NCBI GenBank assembly: GCA_017962145.1
Contig: JAGCVX010000005.1
Location: forward strand, 1-64,000
Reading direction: 5' to 3'
Source: Clostridiales bacterium
Lineage (GTDB): Bacteria; Bacillota; Clostridia; Saccharofermentanales; Saccharofermentanaceae
DNA: 64,000 bases
Shown: piece by piece, positions 32,792-44,783 of the stretch
How positions within the stretch are numbered: position 1 is the stretch's first letter
How the letters are laid out: every line of letters starts with the position of its first letter
Notes under the pieces: model-generated
What the model saw: only the letters and a program-made list of their open reading frames with translations
Told to the model about the DNA's origin: nothing
Database searches by the model: none
Position numbers and translations under genes: made by a program

Positions 32792-33376
32792 TCAGAAATC
32801 CAGGAAATCGTCGTCTACAGACTCGGAAGAATCCTCGAGGAATTCCATCTCGTCTGTGTAGTCGTCCTGAAGGATCGTCTCTTTGAACTCTTCCTTCTCT
32901 GCCTTTTCCTTTGTTACAGGCTTCTTGGCATCGAAAGGATTGATCGCGATCTCGGAGATCTCATCCTGCGAGCGCTCCATCTCGGGAGCCTCAGGAGCAG
33001 TTTCAGAAGAAGTTTCAGTCGGAACAACCTTGATTCCCTTAGCCTTCATCTCTTCTTCTTCCTGTCTCTTCTTCGCCATCAATTCACGCTCACGGCAAAG
33101 ACGACGCAGTTCCTCAGCACGTGCAAGTTCTTTTTCTTTTGCACGCTTCATCTCGGCTTCGACGACTGCCATACCAAGTTTATTCATCTCTGCCTGTTCT
33201 TTGGAATAGGCAGCCTTCTTGGCAATTTCCTTAATATCCTGCTTGGAATTTCCGATCACGATCTTCTTATCGGTAGGTTCAGAAAAGTCGGACGCAGCCT
33301 CCATGATCTCATCCATATCGGGAAGACGAACGGTAGATTTAAATTGATACTTCTTCTCTTTCACAATAACGCTCAT
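32792..33376 (-). CDS. Coiled-coil accessory protein of the kinase/VWA/PP2C operon
   Basis: I do not recognise a named family. The 194-residue product begins MSVIVKEKKYQFKSTVRLP, has a long charged helix likely to be a coiled coil (about residues 60-120, ERELMAKKRQEEEEMKAKG) and an acidic tail ending in DDDFLDF. The start at 33376 follows a GGGGG run; reading further upstream would enter the PP2C gene. It is the fourth and last gene of the triad operon, 11 bases after the phosphatase stop. Its position suggests a substrate or adaptor of the kinase/phosphatase pair. Confidence 0.75.
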   Translation of the reverse strand: MSVIVKEKKYQFKSTVRLPDMDEIMEAASDFSEPTDKKIVIGNSKQDIKEIAKKAAYSKEQAEMNKLGMAVVEAEMKRAKEKELARAEELRRLCRERELMAKKRQEEEEMKAKGIKVVPTETSSETAPEAPEMERSQDEISEIAINPFDAKKPVTKEKAEKEEFKETILQDDYTDEMEFLEDSSESVDDDFLDF

Positions 33377-33387
33377 ACTGCCCCCAA

Positions 33388-34530
33388 TTACAGTAACAAT
33401 AATGCCAATGCCACCAACGAAGAGATAAACAGTCCTGTCATCACAAGAAATGCCCAAAGCGGAACCATCTTGGGTGACGAAGAAGTTACTTCCGGAGAAT
33501 CAGGCACACCCTTTTCAACCTTCTCCTCCTGCTTCGGTTCCTCTGAAGATGATATATTTGCCTTCACATCTTCGGAATCCTCTGCATTCTCTTCTTTCTT
33601 ACTAACTTCTAATGTATCACTTTTTACAGTATTTTGGCAATTGATTTTTGAAAGAATCTCTTGCGCATGTTTAACTTGTGGTACCCACTCCATCTGAACC
33701 GACTTGATCGTATCGGTAAAATCACGTTCGATCTTGCTCTTAGAATCGTTCAAAGCACTGAAATCCGGGGCATTGGTGCCACACAGGTACAAAACGCCGA
33801 CAGAAGCATCGTCCGTTTGCTGTCCGGCATCCACAACAAATTCCTGAATCGTAGATTTCAGCGTCTCTTCGCCCTTTTCTTTTCCCTGGGCTGCAAGCTC
33901 GGCAAGACGAGCCACCACCGGGCGGACCAGCTGGGTCGAAGAATCGTAGACCATCTCCTCTACACCGTCTGTCATCAGGACGAACGCATGCGTATCATCT
34001 GTCGTAGTGCGGATGAATCGCAGATACTCCTGCGCATTCGGGAATGTGATGAAATAGGTGGAAGATGCATTCTCTCCGTTTGCAGGAAGCGTCAGCGGAG
34101 AAAGACCGTGTGAAGATACACGGCAGATCATGCCGTCACCGATATGTCCGGCGAGGACCATATCGCCTTTTACTGCTACAAACAAAAGCGTACAGGACAA
34201 TCTTTCCAGTCCGTCGAGTTCATGCTCGACAAGAAGATCCGCCATTTTCGAGTGGATGGCCGTAACCAGAAGACTTCTTGAAACACTTTCGCGGTTTTCA
34301 AAATAGAACGCATCGAAATGCTTCGTCATCAGTTCTGCCACGCACTCGACCGCGCAACGTGCGCCGAAACGTGCGTGTGTATACTTTGATCCGCCTGCTC
34401 CATCTGCAACCACAACAACGTGGACATCGTTGGCAGACAAGGAAAAAGAGGCATCCTCGCAGGGTGTGCCTCGATTTACGTGCTTATTCCCGATCAGGGA
34501 AACATTTAATAAAGTCGGATCCGGTCTCAT
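33388..34530 (-). CDS. PP2C-family Ser/Thr phosphatase, C-terminal membrane anchor
   Basis: Metal-dependent protein phosphatase of 380 residues. The PP2C motifs are clear: RGTPCEDASF, VVVADGAGGSKYTH, HIGDGMICRV, FVLMTDGVEEM and QTDDASVGVLYL, keeping the aspartates that bind the two metals. After the catalytic part comes a charged Ser/Glu/Lys linker and one helix at the very end (about residues 360-380), so the enzyme is tail-anchored with its active site in the cytosol. It lies three bases after the VWA gene and should reverse the neighbouring kinase's phosphorylations. Confidence 0.92.
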   Translation of the reverse strand: MRPDPTLLNVSLIGNKHVNRGTPCEDASFSLSANDVHVVVVADGAGGSKYTHARFGARCAVECVAELMTKHFDAFYFENRESVSRSLLVTAIHSKMADLLVEHELDGLERLSCTLLFVAVKGDMVLAGHIGDGMICRVSSHGLSPLTLPANGENASSTYFITFPNAQEYLRFIRTTTDDTHAFVLMTDGVEEMVYDSSTQLVRPVVARLAELAAQGKEKGEETLKSTIQEFVVDAGQQTDDASVGVLYLCGTNAPDFSALNDSKSKIERDFTDTIKSVQMEWVPQVKHAQEILSKINCQNTVKSDTLEVSKKEENAEDSEDVKANISSSEEPKQEEKVEKGVPDSPEVTSSSPKMVPLWAFLVMTGLFISSLVALALLLL

Positions 34531-34533
34531 GTA

Positions 34534-35274
34534 TTACTGGCTCTCCTCGATGGCTTTGAAGAAATCATCCATCGCGATGGCATTTCCTTCCGGCTCCGTG
34601 TTCAGAGTGTAGAGCGCATCATTGCCCATATTGTTCGAAACGACCGAAGAGGAACTGGAACCGAGGAAAGCAAAGAGCTTACCGAACTGTGCGGTGCTGA
34701 TGGAGATCGGCTTTTCACGTTTTGCCGACAGTCTCTGCAGCATCGGGAAGTCCGCGCTGTTACCTACGCCGATATTGAATACGACCAGTTTGTCGCTCTC
34801 TTCGAGTTCTCTTACCGCTTCGATGGCTTTTTCCATATTCTCGACCGCATCTTTACCTTGCGGCGCACCATCCGTAATTACGACCAGCCAGGGCTGATAA
34901 TACTTGATGCCCATCTGCTTATATCCCTCTTTACGGGCATTCAAAAGCTCAAGAGCCGTCAGGATACCTTCACCGATCGGTGTCAGGCTTGTCGTTGCCT
35001 GAATACGCGGGATCGTCTGCTCCTTGCTCGTCTTACCAAAAGGAAGGAAGATCTCTACCGAACCACCAAATGTGATGATCGCAATATCTGCCGAAGAACG
35101 TGTCTCTTCATTATCTCGGATAGAAGAAAAGAAACTCTGCAGTCCGTCGTTTAACTGCTCGATCGGATATCCGGCCATCGAGCCGCTGACATCCAGACAA
35201 AAACAGATCGGGAGACGGCGGCGCGTGCTGCTGCCAAAATCCGATTTTGAAAAACCACCTAAGTCGTTACCCAT
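34534..35274 (-). CDS. VWA-domain protein, TerY-like
   Basis: Von Willebrand factor A domain protein of 246 residues, cytosolic. It opens with RRRLPICFCLDVSGSMAGYP, the MIDAS metal site DVSGSM, then IIITFGG-type strand, TSLTPIGEGI and VVITDGAPQG, the remaining MIDAS threonine and aspartate. The layout matches TerY of the tellurium-resistance-associated systems. GAGG precedes the ATG at 35274 by six bases; a start five codons further up is less supported. It is the middle gene between kinase and PP2C, the order of the TerY-P triad. Probably a metal-dependent protein-protein scaffold. Confidence 0.9.
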   Translation of the reverse strand: MGNDLGGFSKSDFGSSTRRRLPICFCLDVSGSMAGYPIEQLNDGLQSFFSSIRDNEETRSSADIAIITFGGSVEIFLPFGKTSKEQTIPRIQATTSLTPIGEGILTALELLNARKEGYKQMGIKYYQPWLVVITDGAPQGKDAVENMEKAIEAVRELEESDKLVVFNIGVGNSADFPMLQRLSAKREKPISISTAQFGKLFAFLGSSSSSVVSNNMGNDALYTLNTEPEGNAIAMDDFFKAIEESQ

Positions 35275-35285
35275 GATGTTCCTCC

Positions 35286-37190
35286 TCAAACAGACATATA
35301 GTATACAAGTACTCCGATTGCCGCAACCAAGAGTATCAATAAAACAAGCGATAACTTACTGCGTTTAAAGAAACCGAAAAATCCTTCATTCTTCGGGATC
35401 GAATTATTTGAAGATGCGCTAAAGCCCTGCTGGGACGCGGCCGAACTGTTTGTCGGGCGGTTCGCTACAGCACTTGCCGCAGAAGGCGTATTCGTCGCCG
35501 GTTTAAATGCACTGTTCGACGGAGCCTGGTTCGAGCCTCGGAAAGAAGGAGAAACCGCTTCTCTCGGCTTCGGTTCCGGCTTTTCTGCCTTGGGTGCCTG
35601 CTTCGGCGCACTCTTGGGCTCGATCGCAAGTCCAAGTTGTTTGTTGTAGCTATTTGTCGCTTCTTCCGTATTCATTGCGGAATTCATAACAGCCTCGCGT
35701 ACGCTGACTTTTCCGCCCTTATGCTTCGGAGCCGCAACGGTTTCCTCGACATAGTACGGGAACGCGCGATAGTTCTCCTCATCTTCGATCTCGTGATTAT
35801 CGAGCTTTGTGCGGTATTCTTCGAGCGCAACAGTCCACTCCGCGCTGTCAAAGAGCTCGCCCTTGGCAAACGCACGAACAAACATATCTTTCAGTTCCGG
35901 CGTCAATGCATCCCAGATCTTGTCATAGCCTCCGATCGGGATACGATCGTTTTCAGAACCATCCAAAGTATACGGGAAAGAACGGGCAGCCATCTCATCA
36001 CGAAGCGTTTCCAGACCATTTCTCTGCGCATAGGGGTGTTGTCCGCAGAAAAGCATGGAGAAAACAAGGATCGCGATGGAATAGTCCTCATCCTGTGGTC
36101 TTCTCAAGAAAGAAACGAAAGACTTGTCCCAAAGTTCAGGACGGGTAAACTCTTCCGTTCCTACAGGACACGGCAGATCCTGATACTGGACACTGTCAAT
36201 ATCGATCAGATAGACATGATCTTCATCATCGATCATGGCATTTTTGAGCTGAATATCACCGACGATGACCCCGTGAAGATGGAGATAGTCCATGATACGC
36301 AGGAAAGACAGCGTTGCCTCAACGATATGCTGGCGCGTAAAGTAAGGGAAGTAATTCTCCATGGCATCCGGTCCGTCAAAGGCACGGCTGATCGTCGTTC
36401 CGGAAGCTTTTCTCATCAGATAGCCTACCGGCACTTTATCTTTCGAGAACAAAAGACGATACGGCCAGCATACATTTTCTGCATCCAAGCCAAGTTGTCT
36501 CATCTTCATCAGCTTATACCAGCGAAGTGGGGTGATTCCTCCGCGATGGTACACTTTCGCAACCAGAGAATCCGTATCGGTATTAAATACCAGACCCTCA
36601 GCACCTGTGCTGATCAGAGAAGTAAGCGTGACTCTTTCTCCCTCATCGGTATAGACAGAATCGCCTACACTGAAATAGATATCACACTCGATAAAATCAG
36701 AATTTCCGGCAATGGGGTTCACACTATATGCTTTTTCTTCCTGCATGCATTCGGAAATGCTCGGATAGAAACGGATATTGCACTGATCGATCACAAAGAT
36801 CGAGCTCATACCCTCTGCATTGATATTGCGCAAGCGGGCAAAGGAATTGCTGTTACGGCCGATAAAGAAACACTCATCCTCATTCTTAAGGTGTTCGAGG
36901 AAAAAGGAAACATCCGAAGCATGTTTGCTCGCGCGAAGCAGTTTCGCTCCAACAAGAACACGAAGCGCACGCTTGATCGAAGTCGCGATTTCATTCTCAT
37001 ACGGATTGTCTGCCTTCACAACACTTTCATGGAAGGCTTTAAAAGCTTTACTGATATAAACAGTTTTGCCTTGATCGACGATCGTGCCGATCAAGGAATC
37101 CAGAATATCCGGATCACTTAGTTCTAAGAAAGCAGAATAGTCAACGACAAGAGAACTAAAACCCTGCAGGACCTCCGCAAAATCAGCCAT
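35286..37190 (-). CDS. PIN-like/protein kinase fusion with C-terminal membrane helix
   Basis: A 634-residue protein. Residues 1-160 (SSLVVDYSAFLE, GKTVYISKAFKAF, DECFFIGRNSNSFARL) have the strand and acid pattern of a PIN-like domain. Residues 185-460 form a COG4248-type protein kinase: loop STGAEGLVF, Lys212 in LVAKVYH, HGVIVGDIQLKNAMI with Asp312 and Asn317, and LIDIDSVQ in place of DFG. A Pro/Ser/Ala-rich linker (about 500-605) leads to a single helix at 612-632. The ATG at 37190 follows GGGGG. First gene of the operon behind a TTGTTA/TATAAT promoter. Likely the kinase of a TerY-P triad; the substrate is unknown. Confidence 0.87.
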   Translation of the reverse strand: MADFAEVLQGFSSLVVDYSAFLELSDPDILDSLIGTIVDQGKTVYISKAFKAFHESVVKADNPYENEIATSIKRALRVLVGAKLLRASKHASDVSFFLEHLKNEDECFFIGRNSNSFARLRNINAEGMSSIFVIDQCNIRFYPSISECMQEEKAYSVNPIAGNSDFIECDIYFSVGDSVYTDEGERVTLTSLISTGAEGLVFNTDTDSLVAKVYHRGGITPLRWYKLMKMRQLGLDAENVCWPYRLLFSKDKVPVGYLMRKASGTTISRAFDGPDAMENYFPYFTRQHIVEATLSFLRIMDYLHLHGVIVGDIQLKNAMIDDEDHVYLIDIDSVQYQDLPCPVGTEEFTRPELWDKSFVSFLRRPQDEDYSIAILVFSMLFCGQHPYAQRNGLETLRDEMAARSFPYTLDGSENDRIPIGGYDKIWDALTPELKDMFVRAFAKGELFDSAEWTVALEEYRTKLDNHEIEDEENYRAFPYYVEETVAAPKHKGGKVSVREAVMNSAMNTEEATNSYNKQLGLAIEPKSAPKQAPKAEKPEPKPREAVSPSFRGSNQAPSNSAFKPATNTPSAASAVANRPTNSSAASQQGFSASSNNSIPKNEGFFGFFKRSKLSLVLLILLVAAIGVLVYYMSV

Positions 37191-37218
37191 AAACACCCCC
37201 ATTTACTTGCCTTAATTA

Positions 37219-37247
37219 ATTATAAGTCAAGTAAAGACCTGTAACAA
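37219..37247 (-). promoter_or_regulatory. Promoter of the kinase/VWA/PP2C operon
   Basis: Minus-strand TTGTTA, 17-base spacer, TATAAT, 29 bases before the kinase start. Consensus -10 and spacing; looks like a housekeeping promoter, not a stress-sigma one. Confidence 0.75.
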
Positions 37248-40466: not shown

Positions 40467-41483
40467 TTAATCTTTCTTTTTAGTCTTGGATGATGAACGG
40501 CTGGAAGATTTACTCGTTGTCTTTGCTTTGGCCGCCTTTGCCGCAGTACTACTCTTTGTCGACTTGGAAGCAGACTTAGAAGCCGCTTTTGTCTTCGATG
40601 CAGACTTTTTAGAAGCAGCCGTCTTCGACGTTGCCTTGGAAGAGGAACGTGTCTTCGCAGAAACACTCTTAGAAGAGGTCTTCGTTGACTTGGCAGCAGG
40701 CTTCTTACGCGGAATATACTTGGAAATAGCTTCGTCAAGAACTGCGCCGATACTGTCATGGATCGTCAGCATCGCCTGCAGATCAAGATAAGTAGAACTC
40801 TTGTTGATGATAACGACACGGTCACTCTTAAGGAACTGCGCAAAAGTCGCAGCCGGATATACAGTAAGCGACGTACCGCCGATGATCAGAAGATCGGCCT
40901 TCTTGATCGACTTGACTGCGTTATCAATATTTTCGTGCTCCAGATGTTCCTCATAAAGAACTACATCCGGACGAACGATGCCGCCGCACTTTGTACAATG
41001 CGGTACACCCTTCGACTTCAGGATAAAGTCCAGTGTGTAAGTCTCCTTGCAATCGAGGCAGTAGTTACGGAATACTGAACCATGCAGTTCGATCGTCGTC
41101 GTGCTGCCGGCCATCTGATGCAGATTATCGATATTCTGCGTGATCGTTGCTTTCAGTTTCCCTTGCTTCTCAAGACGTACTAAAGCACGGTGCGCCTTGT
41201 TCGGTCGAGCCTTCGGATAACAGAGCTTTCTTCTGTAGAAATCGTAAAATTCTTCAGGATGTGCTTCAAAGAAAGAATGACTGATAATATCTACCGGGCG
41301 ATAAGACAGACCACTTTCCTGATTAAAAATGCCCTCGCCACTGCGGAAGTCCGGAATCCCACTCTCTGTAGAAACGCCAGCTCCACCAAGAAAGACTATG
41401 TATTTTGATTCTTTAATCAGTTGCCGCAGCTGTTCGATCTTCCTCTCGCGGGCACCTTCATAACGATCCAGTCTTGTCTCCAC
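40467..41483 (-). CDS. Sirtuin (SIR2) NAD-dependent deacylase with lysine-rich H1-like tail
   Basis: Removes acyl groups from lysines using NAD. Residues 1-255 are a complete sirtuin: GGAGVSTESGIPDFRS, TQNIDNLHQMAG, catalytic His134 in LHGSVFRN, zinc cysteines 142, 145, 163 and 166, and GGTSLTVYPAA. Residues 259-338 are a different kind of sequence: Lys/Ser/Ala/Thr repeats (ASKSASKSTKSSTAAKAAKA) with more than twenty lysines and no acid until the last residue, like histone H1 or AlgP tails. GTG start with GGGG seven bases upstream. Between the PH-domain and MutS-like genes. The tail probably binds DNA or RNA and may itself be a substrate. Confidence 0.93.
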   Translation of the reverse strand: METRLDRYEGARERKIEQLRQLIKESKYIVFLGGAGVSTESGIPDFRSGEGIFNQESGLSYRPVDIISHSFFEAHPEEFYDFYRRKLCYPKARPNKAHRALVRLEKQGKLKATITQNIDNLHQMAGSTTTIELHGSVFRNYCLDCKETYTLDFILKSKGVPHCTKCGGIVRPDVVLYEEHLEHENIDNAVKSIKKADLLIIGGTSLTVYPAATFAQFLKSDRVVIINKSSTYLDLQAMLTIHDSIGAVLDEAISKYIPRKKPAAKSTKTSSKSVSAKTRSSSKATSKTAASKKSASKTKAASKSASKSTKSSTAAKAAKAKTTSKSSSRSSSKTKKKD

Positions 41484-42052: not shown

Positions 42053-42937
42053 TTACGAAGCGTAGTCAACAAAACATTCCATATAATACGGACACCATGT
42101 ATGTGTATATGTCATGGTGAAGTCTCCCTTGAGATAGAAATCGTACCGGATCATCTGCGGCTCATCCGGGATCGGATCATCCCATGTAGGATCAACGTGA
42201 TACCAGATCGAAGCAATACGCACCAGACACCACGCATGGGCTCCATCTCCGAATCCAAATGTAGATCTGCCGGAGATGACCTGTGCCTGTACGCCGCTCA
42301 AAAGACAAAGCGCGACAAAAAGCTCCGCATACGCCTGGCACTGTCCCTGACGCTCATCAAAAAGCACTTCCACCTTGGAATACTGGGTCACTTCGCCATT
42401 TACCGCATATTTATAATGCGAGATGATGAAATCATGGATCGCACGTACTTTGTCCTGATCACTCATGCCATCATGAACAATGGTTTCTTTGATCTCTAAA
42501 AGCTTTTCGCCGACTTTTTCAGCCTCTTTACTGGGGTATTTATTCACATTCTTGGCATAGAGATACTGCATCGCCTGTCCGCAGGCATTCAGTTCCATGA
42601 TGATCCTGATCTTGCAGACGCCTTCTTCCTTGTTGCTATAGCGGATCTTTACGTCCTGTTCACGGAAAGCAGAATGAAGTGCCATCTGACCTTCGAGTTC
42701 ATGCCAGTAATCCATAAACTCATCGTATGTAGTTGTCTGCACATCTATTTCGTTCTCAAACTTGTATATGCCATCGTTGATCGTATCAAAGAGTTCTTCC
42801 GCACTGGAGATCTGCTTAAAAAACCGCGGATCATCAAACAGAGCCAGATAATCTGAACAAGCTGTGAAAAACAGCATGCAGGCACAAGCCATAAACAGGC
42901 AGAAAAACTTACTAATGACTCTTCTTTCGGCTCTCAT
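42053..42937 (-). CDS. Transglutaminase-like lipoprotein
   Basis: Secreted lipoprotein of about 294 residues. A signal peptide ends in the lipobox FFTAC with cysteine about residue 26. The papain-like transglutaminase core is complete: Cys in GQCQAYAELFVAL, His in GDGAHAWCLVRI and Asp in HVDPTWDDPIPDEP, so it could be active as a protease or crosslinker at the cell surface. GAGG lies six bases before the ATG at 42937, which overlaps the end of the NodB-like gene by 26 bases. Last gene of the topoisomerase operon. The substrate is unknown. Confidence 0.88.
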   Translation of the reverse strand: MRAERRVISKFFCLFMACACMLFFTACSDYLALFDDPRFFKQISSAEELFDTINDGIYKFENEIDVQTTTYDEFMDYWHELEGQMALHSAFREQDVKIRYSNKEEGVCKIRIIMELNACGQAMQYLYAKNVNKYPSKEAEKVGEKLLEIKETIVHDGMSDQDKVRAIHDFIISHYKYAVNGEVTQYSKVEVLFDERQGQCQAYAELFVALCLLSGVQAQVISGRSTFGFGDGAHAWCLVRIASIWYHVDPTWDDPIPDEPQMIRYDFYLKGDFTMTYTHTWCPYYMECFVDYAS

Positions 42938-44783
42938 CGTAAACCTCACTTACGTCAAACAATCTCGAATAGTCCACATTACGAAGTGTATCACCATTCA
43001 GCATACAGCGGTCAAAATACAGATAATTGTCTCCATAAGTATAATACGGAGACGGTCCAACTCCAAAGAAAATTCTGAAACCCTGATCTTTGAGGTATCC
43101 GCATCTCGGATCCGAACCACGGATAAAGTCTCCGTTCGGATAGACCAGGATAGAAACAGGACCCAGGATCGAACCGACCTGTGCTTGCCACTTCTGCGTA
43201 TCCGCTTCGATCGTTTCCAGTTCGCAGTGGTTGGCATTGATAAAACCATAAGTGGAAGATGCCATGATCCAGCCGGAATCCTTCAATTTGTCGACGATCG
43301 CCTGAACCATCGCCTTATTGTTATCGATATCCTTATCCGTAGGATCGATGGTCGAAAGGCCGGCAGCCTGGAGCGCGCTGTTTCGGTCATCCACCTGGTC
43401 GATATCCGTTACGTAGCCGAACACGGACTGATAACCTGTAAGCGAGATGACACCCTTTACACCGTTATAGGAAAAATCCGGATGCTCTTCTACAAATGCA
43501 TCGAGAATACCGATGGCCTCACTGCTTCTGCTCACCACCGTCTGTCCGCTGGCGCTGATATACTCACCGCAGACCTGACCCAGATCGTTCAGCACCAGAC
43601 GCTGACACATACCGATCGTGCTTCGGGCAGCTGTATAAGAGAAATCTTCCAGTATGATGACCAGCGGTTTCTTATCCTGCGGGATCACGATCGACTGGGC
43701 ATTGATGAATCCGGTGTTGGAAAGATCTGCCATGGAGGTCGGATCGATCAGGCAGTAATTCTTCTCATAAAGACTTTCGAGGATCGCACGGAATTCAGAA
43801 GTCGTCAGATAATAGGAATCCGTCGAAGATACATAGTTCATTTCGAAAGCCACCTGAGTATCCGCGATCAAGGGCTTTACGCAGATGACTTCGACCTGAC
43901 CGGTATATGTGCTGACCGGATATGTATTTGAAGTTGCAACATAAAGGTTGGACTGGATGATCTGGTCATCCGGGAAAATACGGGCCAGATCGGAAAGGAG
44001 CTCTTCAGCTGAATAATACTGAAAATTCGCCAGCATGTGGTCGGCCAGATTCATCATCGGCTGATACATCTCGGTCTTACAGTCCTCAAGACGCTTCTTT
44101 GCAAAGTCATTTACGAAACCTTCGGATGAAGAGATAACGTATTCATAGTATTCGACCGCGGCAATATAGTCCGCATTGGCAAAAAGCGCTTCCGCACTTT
44201 GTACATCGCCTCGGGAAAGCTCGATCTGATCGATCTCGGCACGAAGCGGGCGGGTCGCCGCCTGAAGATTGTTGAGATTCTCGAGCTGCTCAAAGATAAA
44301 CATCAGCGTCGGTTTTTCGATCGTACCCAAAAGGAATTCTTCACAAAGATCCGTCAGCCACACCGTCATGCGGGCACCGGTAAGTTCACCCAGACCTTCT
44401 AGGAATGCGATATCGTCAGCGGTCGGCGTATAGCGGTCATAGCGGATCTTATCTTCGATCTGCGTAACACGCTCGTTTACGGTCGCTTCCATCTGCGTCA
44501 GGATCTCATATTCTTTGCTGAAGTCACTGTCATCGCCCGGATCGCGGTTGATGATGATATCGTTGAGTTCACGATACATCGACAGCGCTTTTGAATAATC
44601 ACGCTTCTCGAGTGCCTCGTTAAACTCAGGCATAACTCCGGCCAGACGTTTGGTATCTTTTTCCACGAAAACCATGATCACAAGCATGGACAGAAGGCTC
44701 AGTATCGCGATACTGATCAGGACCCACATTCCGATCGAACGGGGCTTATCCACCGATACTGAATTTCCGCCAAACTCCATCAT
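42912..44783 (-). CDS. Membrane-anchored NodB-fold-like protein (degenerate polysaccharide deacetylase)
   Basis: A 623-residue protein with one helix near residues 18-40 and a long external part. About residues 45-290 are helical repeats (TPR-like spacing). From about 335 the order of a NodB polysaccharide deacetylase appears: FRAILESLYEKNYCLIDP, KKPLVIILEDFSY where the metal-binding DD would be, a large insert, SSTYGFINANHCE at the usual HxxxH site, and SILVYPNGDF. Several metal ligands are altered, so it may bind glycans without cutting. It starts three bases after the ParC-like stop. Call at family level only. Confidence 0.7.
   Translation of the reverse strand: MMEFGGNSVSVDKPRSIGMWVLISIAILSLLSMLVIMVFVEKDTKRLAGVMPEFNEALEKRDYSKALSMYRELNDIIINRDPGDDSDFSKEYEILTQMEATVNERVTQIEDKIRYDRYTPTADDIAFLEGLGELTGARMTVWLTDLCEEFLLGTIEKPTLMFIFEQLENLNNLQAATRPLRAEIDQIELSRGDVQSAEALFANADYIAAVEYYEYVISSSEGFVNDFAKKRLEDCKTEMYQPMMNLADHMLANFQYYSAEELLSDLARIFPDDQIIQSNLYVATSNTYPVSTYTGQVEVICVKPLIADTQVAFEMNYVSSTDSYYLTTSEFRAILESLYEKNYCLIDPTSMADLSNTGFINAQSIVIPQDKKPLVIILEDFSYTAARSTIGMCQRLVLNDLGQVCGEYISASGQTVVSRSSEAIGILDAFVEEHPDFSYNGVKGVISLTGYQSVFGYVTDIDQVDDRNSALQAAGLSTIDPTDKDIDNNKAMVQAIVDKLKDSGWIMASSTYGFINANHCELETIEADTQKWQAQVGSILGPVSILVYPNGDFIRGSDPRCGYLKDQGFRIFFGVGPSPYYTYGDNYLYFDRCMLNGDTLRNVDYSRLFDVSEVYDESRKKSH

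Follow-up and report, generated by a model that had tools for sequence, protein, structure and literature searches.

A TerY-P-type kinase-VWA-PP2C operon with a fourth gene, conserved across a Clostridia family, as a putative membrane-based phospho-switch

Main finding

In a 64,000-nucleotide stretch of a gut Clostridia genome (the window), four adjacent minus-strand genes encode a Ser/Thr kinase (KIN), a VWA protein, a PP2C phosphatase and a protein of no known family. Most known TerY-P triads lie in stress and defence loci of patchy distribution. From sequence comparisons we infer that this operon is probably a conflict-type TerY-P module that has become permanently settled at a housekeeping locus, where it would act as a Ser/Thr phospho-switch based at the membrane, and its function and input are read in the same way.

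Results

Gene layout and operon structure

All four open reading frames proposed in the initial annotation were found at their positions. The features are as follows.

37219-37247, minus strand: promoter-like TTGTTA-17-TATAAT upstream of KIN, a consensus match only
35286-37202, minus strand: KIN, with a PIN-like domain, Ser/Thr kinase, Pro/Ser/Ala-rich linker and C-terminal TM helix
36702-37190, minus strand: PIN-like (pseudo-PIN) N-terminal domain of KIN, from an AF2 model and fold search
35748-36671, minus strand: kinase catalytic domain of KIN (K216, D316, N321 and D334/D336 invariant)
35301-35354, minus strand: C-terminal hydrophobic helix of KIN, from hydropathy scan and alignment
34534-35274, minus strand: TerY/YegL-type VWA protein, 246 aa, intact MIDAS, start ATG 35274
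33388-34530, minus strand: PP2C_2 phosphatase, 380 aa, with acidic linker and tail anchor
33394-33447, minus strand: C-terminal tail anchor of PP2C, from hydropathy scan
32792-33376, minus strand: fourth gene, 194 aa, start ATG 33376

For KIN, the ATG at 37190 (MADF..., common to the genus) is a likelier start than that at 37202, and the mechanical call of the fourth gene from 33457 was too long and was corrected to ATG 33376. The intergenic gaps across the four genes are only 3-14 nt, so KIN, VWA, PP2C and the fourth gene likely form a single operon. They had been described as tightly packed behind one promoter; the packing held, while the promoter is a consensus match only, since TTGTTA-17-TATAAT-like sites were not enriched relative to shuffled sequences.

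The first three proteins form a TerY-P-type triad

Profile searches of each protein matched KIN to Pfam Pkinase (E 1.9e-7, just short of the Pfam cut-off), the VWA protein to VWA (E 2.6e-16) and the phosphatase to PP2C_2 (E 1.2e-38). In an alignment of 29 homologues, K216, D316, N321 and D334/D336 of KIN are invariant; the first three, counted from the first ATG, are the Lys212, Asp312 and Asn317 motifs initially annotated. The VWA MIDAS (D33, S35, S37, T103, D140) and the PP2C acids (D43, D132, D188, D240/D241) are conserved family-wide, in agreement with the MIDAS and the complete metal site first described. Because these active-site residues are invariant or conserved, the kinase, the VWA MIDAS and the PP2C are all predicted to be functional. 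KIN was also considered as the only Hanks-type kinase of the genome, and this was ruled out by the presence of a PASTA-domain kinase and one further kinase.

In comparisons against a 3-protein database, KIN matched E. coli YegI (27.8% identity, E 1.1e-23), the VWA protein matched YegL (36.6% over 194 aa, E 6.8e-35) and the phosphatase matched PphC (29%, E 1.9e-13). Owing to this homology the operon is assigned to the TerY-P-type triads, as first proposed: it has a TerY/YegL-type VWA protein with a MIDAS, an adjacent catalytic PP2C and an adjacent YegI-like Ser/Thr kinase. No Pfam zinc ribbon or OB fold was detected at the KIN C-terminus, which consists instead of a low-complexity linker and a TM helix; such C-terminal folds mark TerY-P kinase subtypes, not the triad itself. 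PADLOC profiles gave only weak kinase matches to the operon, and a typical HHH-type triad scored no better, indicating that the library is insensitive to such triads.

The phosphatase is the predicted constant membrane anchor

In a hydropathy scan, all examined family members with PP2C proved to have a hydrophobic helix at the C-terminus of the phosphatase, so that the tail-anchored phosphatase initially annotated extends to the whole family. This tail is absent from 10/10 outgroup triad phosphatases and from PphC. The KIN of the window has the C-terminal membrane helix annotated for the kinase, but two subgroups, about a third of the family, lack it. As the PP2C tail is universal and the KIN helix is not, the phosphatase is predicted to be the constant membrane anchor of the operon. 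A membrane-placed kinase in such triads has precedent in E. coli YegI, which is described as membrane-bound and is dephosphorylated by PphC (PMC13232886), and in described kinase-TM fusions adjoining PP2C and vWA genes (PMC7159879).

The operon is a core-chromosome feature of one family

KIN was found in 33 of the 35 genomes of the Clostridia family, across five genera. The two genomes in which KIN seems missing are incomplete; in one, the contig stops exactly at PP2C, which is present together with the fourth gene. All five genera show the gene order KIN-VWA-PP2C-fourth gene, and all four genes are kept at every locus examined, so the neighbourhood survey upheld the gene order. In most genera the operon adjoins Sir2, MutS, LysA, glycosyltransferase and ArgS genes, and in one it lies directly after MutS. 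Outside the family, a class-wide sample of 291 genomes yielded a close kinase in only one genome. Being near-universal at the lysA/mutS/argS locus, the operon is a vertically inherited core-chromosome feature of this family and not an island. A phage origin was considered and discarded, with only one weak match.

Three further observations concern these loci. In one genome (G034, L139:7805-13436), VWA and PP2C are separated by an inserted cassette that encodes an ABC transporter and two-component proteins, with the four genes retained. In the window, the Sir2 deacetylase gene (40470-41483, minus strand) encodes a long, Lys/Ser/Ala-rich, low-complexity C-terminal tail. A 623-aa gene adjoining gyrA/gyrB (42915-44783, minus strand) is 75-81% identical across the genus and has no Pfam match.

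The fourth gene is conserved with the triad

Wherever PP2C is present among the family loci examined, the fourth gene comes after it. Its product has a conserved N-terminus of ~35 aa (of the type KKYxFxxxVxxPDxxEIxxAASDFS), a charged E/K/R-rich central helix and a C-tail that in this genus is acidic and contains Ser, DDSSESVDDDFLDF. Pfam and further profile searches assigned it to no known family, and no TM helix was found. The differences at the three codon positions (0.32/0.27/0.59) point to constraint at the protein level. Judged by its conservation, the added, unrecognised gene of the initial annotation is a real, lineage-specific component of the operon. Analogy and composition make its product a candidate substrate or scaffold. 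A triad on a Lysinibacillus plasmid also has an extra gene (L121:10084-10740), which is apparently unrelated and has a weak DnaJ-like end.

The KIN N-terminal domain is likely PIN-like

The AF2 model of KIN residues 6-168 (four sequences) reached pLDDT 82 and pTM 0.79 as the best of five, the rest scoring 54-63; a longer model of the N-terminal and kinase domains (four sequences) was unusable at pLDDT 44. A VIA search with the N-terminal model returned Fcf1/Utp24 (Z 7.0-7.4), SMG6 (6.8), AF0591 (6.6) and SMG5 (6.0). The top VIA rows are mostly PIN entries at Z 6-7.4, all below 8 and within the range of common arrangements, and a terpene synthase and other entries likewise reached Z 6-7. PIN entries also lead the Foldseek list, where the first two matches have probabilities of 0.98 and 0.94, with other alpha/beta folds close behind. 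The initial annotation had called residues 1-165 PIN-like, and the predicted structure does resemble PIN domains. In a profile-profile comparison, the family N-terminus aligned in register with the N-termini of PIN-kinases over 110 columns at P 7.7e-4, only slightly better than the best control, Sir2 (0.0017); most controls gave 0.07-0.6 and a reversed alignment 0.5. Single-sequence and HMM searches with the N-terminus (Pfam, PDB, pooled loci) gave no significant PIN match. Neither did hhalign against VapC-type and PIN_3 alignments from relatives, a test of only moderate sensitivity given that the VapC set recovers PIN_3 (91%) but barely a third PIN set (5%).

Alternatively, the domain could be a sensor of a different Rossmann-like kind, such as a Usp-, receiver- or methyltransferase-like one, with no relation to PIN, a reading in keeping with the lack of a sequence-level PIN match, the closeness of other alpha/beta folds and the nearly equal Sir2 control. 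We consider this rather unlikely, because most top VIA rows are PIN entries, the domain occupies the position of the PIN domain in the closest kinases and the best-probability viral structure match (0.92) is a PIN-domain protein. On the model, the fold matches and the profile-profile result, a PIN-like N-terminal domain is thus likely, if unproven.

PIN-kinase triads occur on plasmids and beside restriction-modification genes

Outside the family, the nearest kinases are fusions of a PIN domain to a kinase, encoded in loci of the order kinase-VWA-PP2C. Such triads were found next to type I and III restriction-modification genes in a Clostridia genome, on a Lysinibacillus plasmid (NZ_CP106864) and on a Paenarthrobacter conjugative plasmid (NZ_CP136443), where the kinase is annotated 'PIN domain-containing protein'. 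A Fusobacterium locus (NZ_CP084075) is unannotated, and its VWA and PP2C genes were identified by sequence comparison. The combination of PIN-kinase, VWA and PP2C, where the PIN-like region was first noted as unusual, is therefore not peculiar to this locus, since the Fusobacterium, Lysinibacillus and Paenarthrobacter records carry it too. These outside kinases match Pfam PIN_4 at or above the cut-off. In a kinase-domain tree the family grouped with the PIN-kinases (96/92), apart from YegI, HHH and WD40 types; the PIN-kinase group itself was weakly supported (71/50), with long branches. The apparent ancestors of the family operon are PIN-kinase TerY-P modules like those on plasmids or beside restriction-modification genes. 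Upstream of PIN-kinase triads outside the family, an HTH and PIN-like gene was observed (L082:6529-7518, L114:590-1453, L120:5048-5956, L118:393-1319). It is paralogous to the kinase's own PIN domain, and the pair may form a heteromer.

The operon might still be a working anti-phage or conflict system that the family has kept everywhere. Two papers (PMC11090510, PMC7699616) cite Gao 2020 for stand-alone antiphage systems formed by TerY-P-like modules whose kinase has an OB fold, and related PIN-kinase triads lie on plasmids or next to restriction-modification genes of types I and III. We regard this as unlikely, as the operon is near-universal and vertically inherited at the lysA/mutS/argS locus rather than patchy, has no effector or nuclease gene and has lost most PIN acids.

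Most PIN catalytic acids are lost in the family

The aligned sequences of 29 family members have other residues in place of the beta4 acid (IGRNS, VGKKS, LEHS, TTRKG) and an unconserved alpha3 acid, leaving the beta1 Asp (D21) as the only PIN catalytic acid kept, in nearly all members. The N-terminal domain diverges much faster than the kinase domain (15-25% versus 50-58% identity between genera). PIN-kinase relatives outside the family retain the apparent PIN acids. That the domain still cuts RNA, with phosphorylation restraining the cutting in toxin-antitoxin style, would fit the retained D21 and the apparently intact acids of the plasmid relatives, but is very improbable given the unconserved beta4 and alpha3 positions and the rapid divergence. 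Nuclease action is thus unlikely and, with most acids lost and a weak PIN sequence match, a binding domain is the more likely role. The membrane phospho-switch with a nucleic-acid input proposed in the initial annotation accordingly keeps its membrane part, through the PP2C anchor, while nucleic-acid binding stands as a hypothesis.

Discussion

TerD linkage is an association of some TerY-P members and no defining feature. A role in a tellurite/metal (Ter) stress response is extremely unlikely: the TerY-like VWA has an intact MIDAS and, according to a citing paper, Anantharaman et al. reportedly linked the TerY-P triad to Ter systems in 2012, but TerD, already noted as missing, occurs in 0 of 41 genomes of the order and none of the neighbouring genes checked with Pfam is a Ter gene, leaving a Ter-linked reading unsupported.

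In the phospho-switch that we propose, the kinase would phosphorylate Ser/Thr residues of itself and of its partners, and the membrane-anchored PP2C would reverse this. By analogy, the VWA protein would be a metal-dependent adaptor joining kinase and phosphatase. The PIN-like domain would serve as a binding input (for an RNA or DNA end, or a protein) and not as a nuclease, the fourth protein may be a cytosolic substrate or relay, and the PP2C tail anchor would hold the switch at the membrane. More tentatively, a mobile PIN-kinase conflict module may have been domesticated in the family ancestor, its nuclease becoming a non-catalytic sensor and a PP2C anchor and a new protein being gained, to yield a (near-)essential membrane pathway with a nucleic-acid input. 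On that view, the operon would be a possible example of housekeeping signalling that arose from a conflict system. A triad that is fixed throughout one bacterial family and always accompanied by a fourth protein, an obvious candidate substrate, is a tractable system in which to trace input, substrate and output.

The operon shares with the TerY-P triad (Anantharaman et al. 2012; OB-fold form, Gao et al. 2020) its adjacent TerY-like VWA, PP2C and Ser/Thr kinase. Its kinase differs in that the N-terminus is PIN-like and the C-terminus carries a TM helix where the described kinases have a zinc ribbon or OB fold. The kinase gene also comes first, a fourth gene is added, the locus is core chromosomal, and there are no Ter or nuclease partners. 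All three proteins of E. coli YegI-PphC-YegL are homologous to the first three of the operon; the E. coli system has no PIN-like domain, another gene order and a phosphatase that is soluble by hydropathy. The PIN-kinase (CFI-box)/VWA/PP2C loci share with the family the N-terminal PIN domain and the order kinase-VWA-PP2C. Their PIN domain looks intact, their C-terminal zinc/CFI part is long, their PP2C is soluble, an HTH-PIN gene is often extra and their setting is patchy or mobile, whereas the family has a degenerate PIN domain, tail anchors and a fourth gene of its own.
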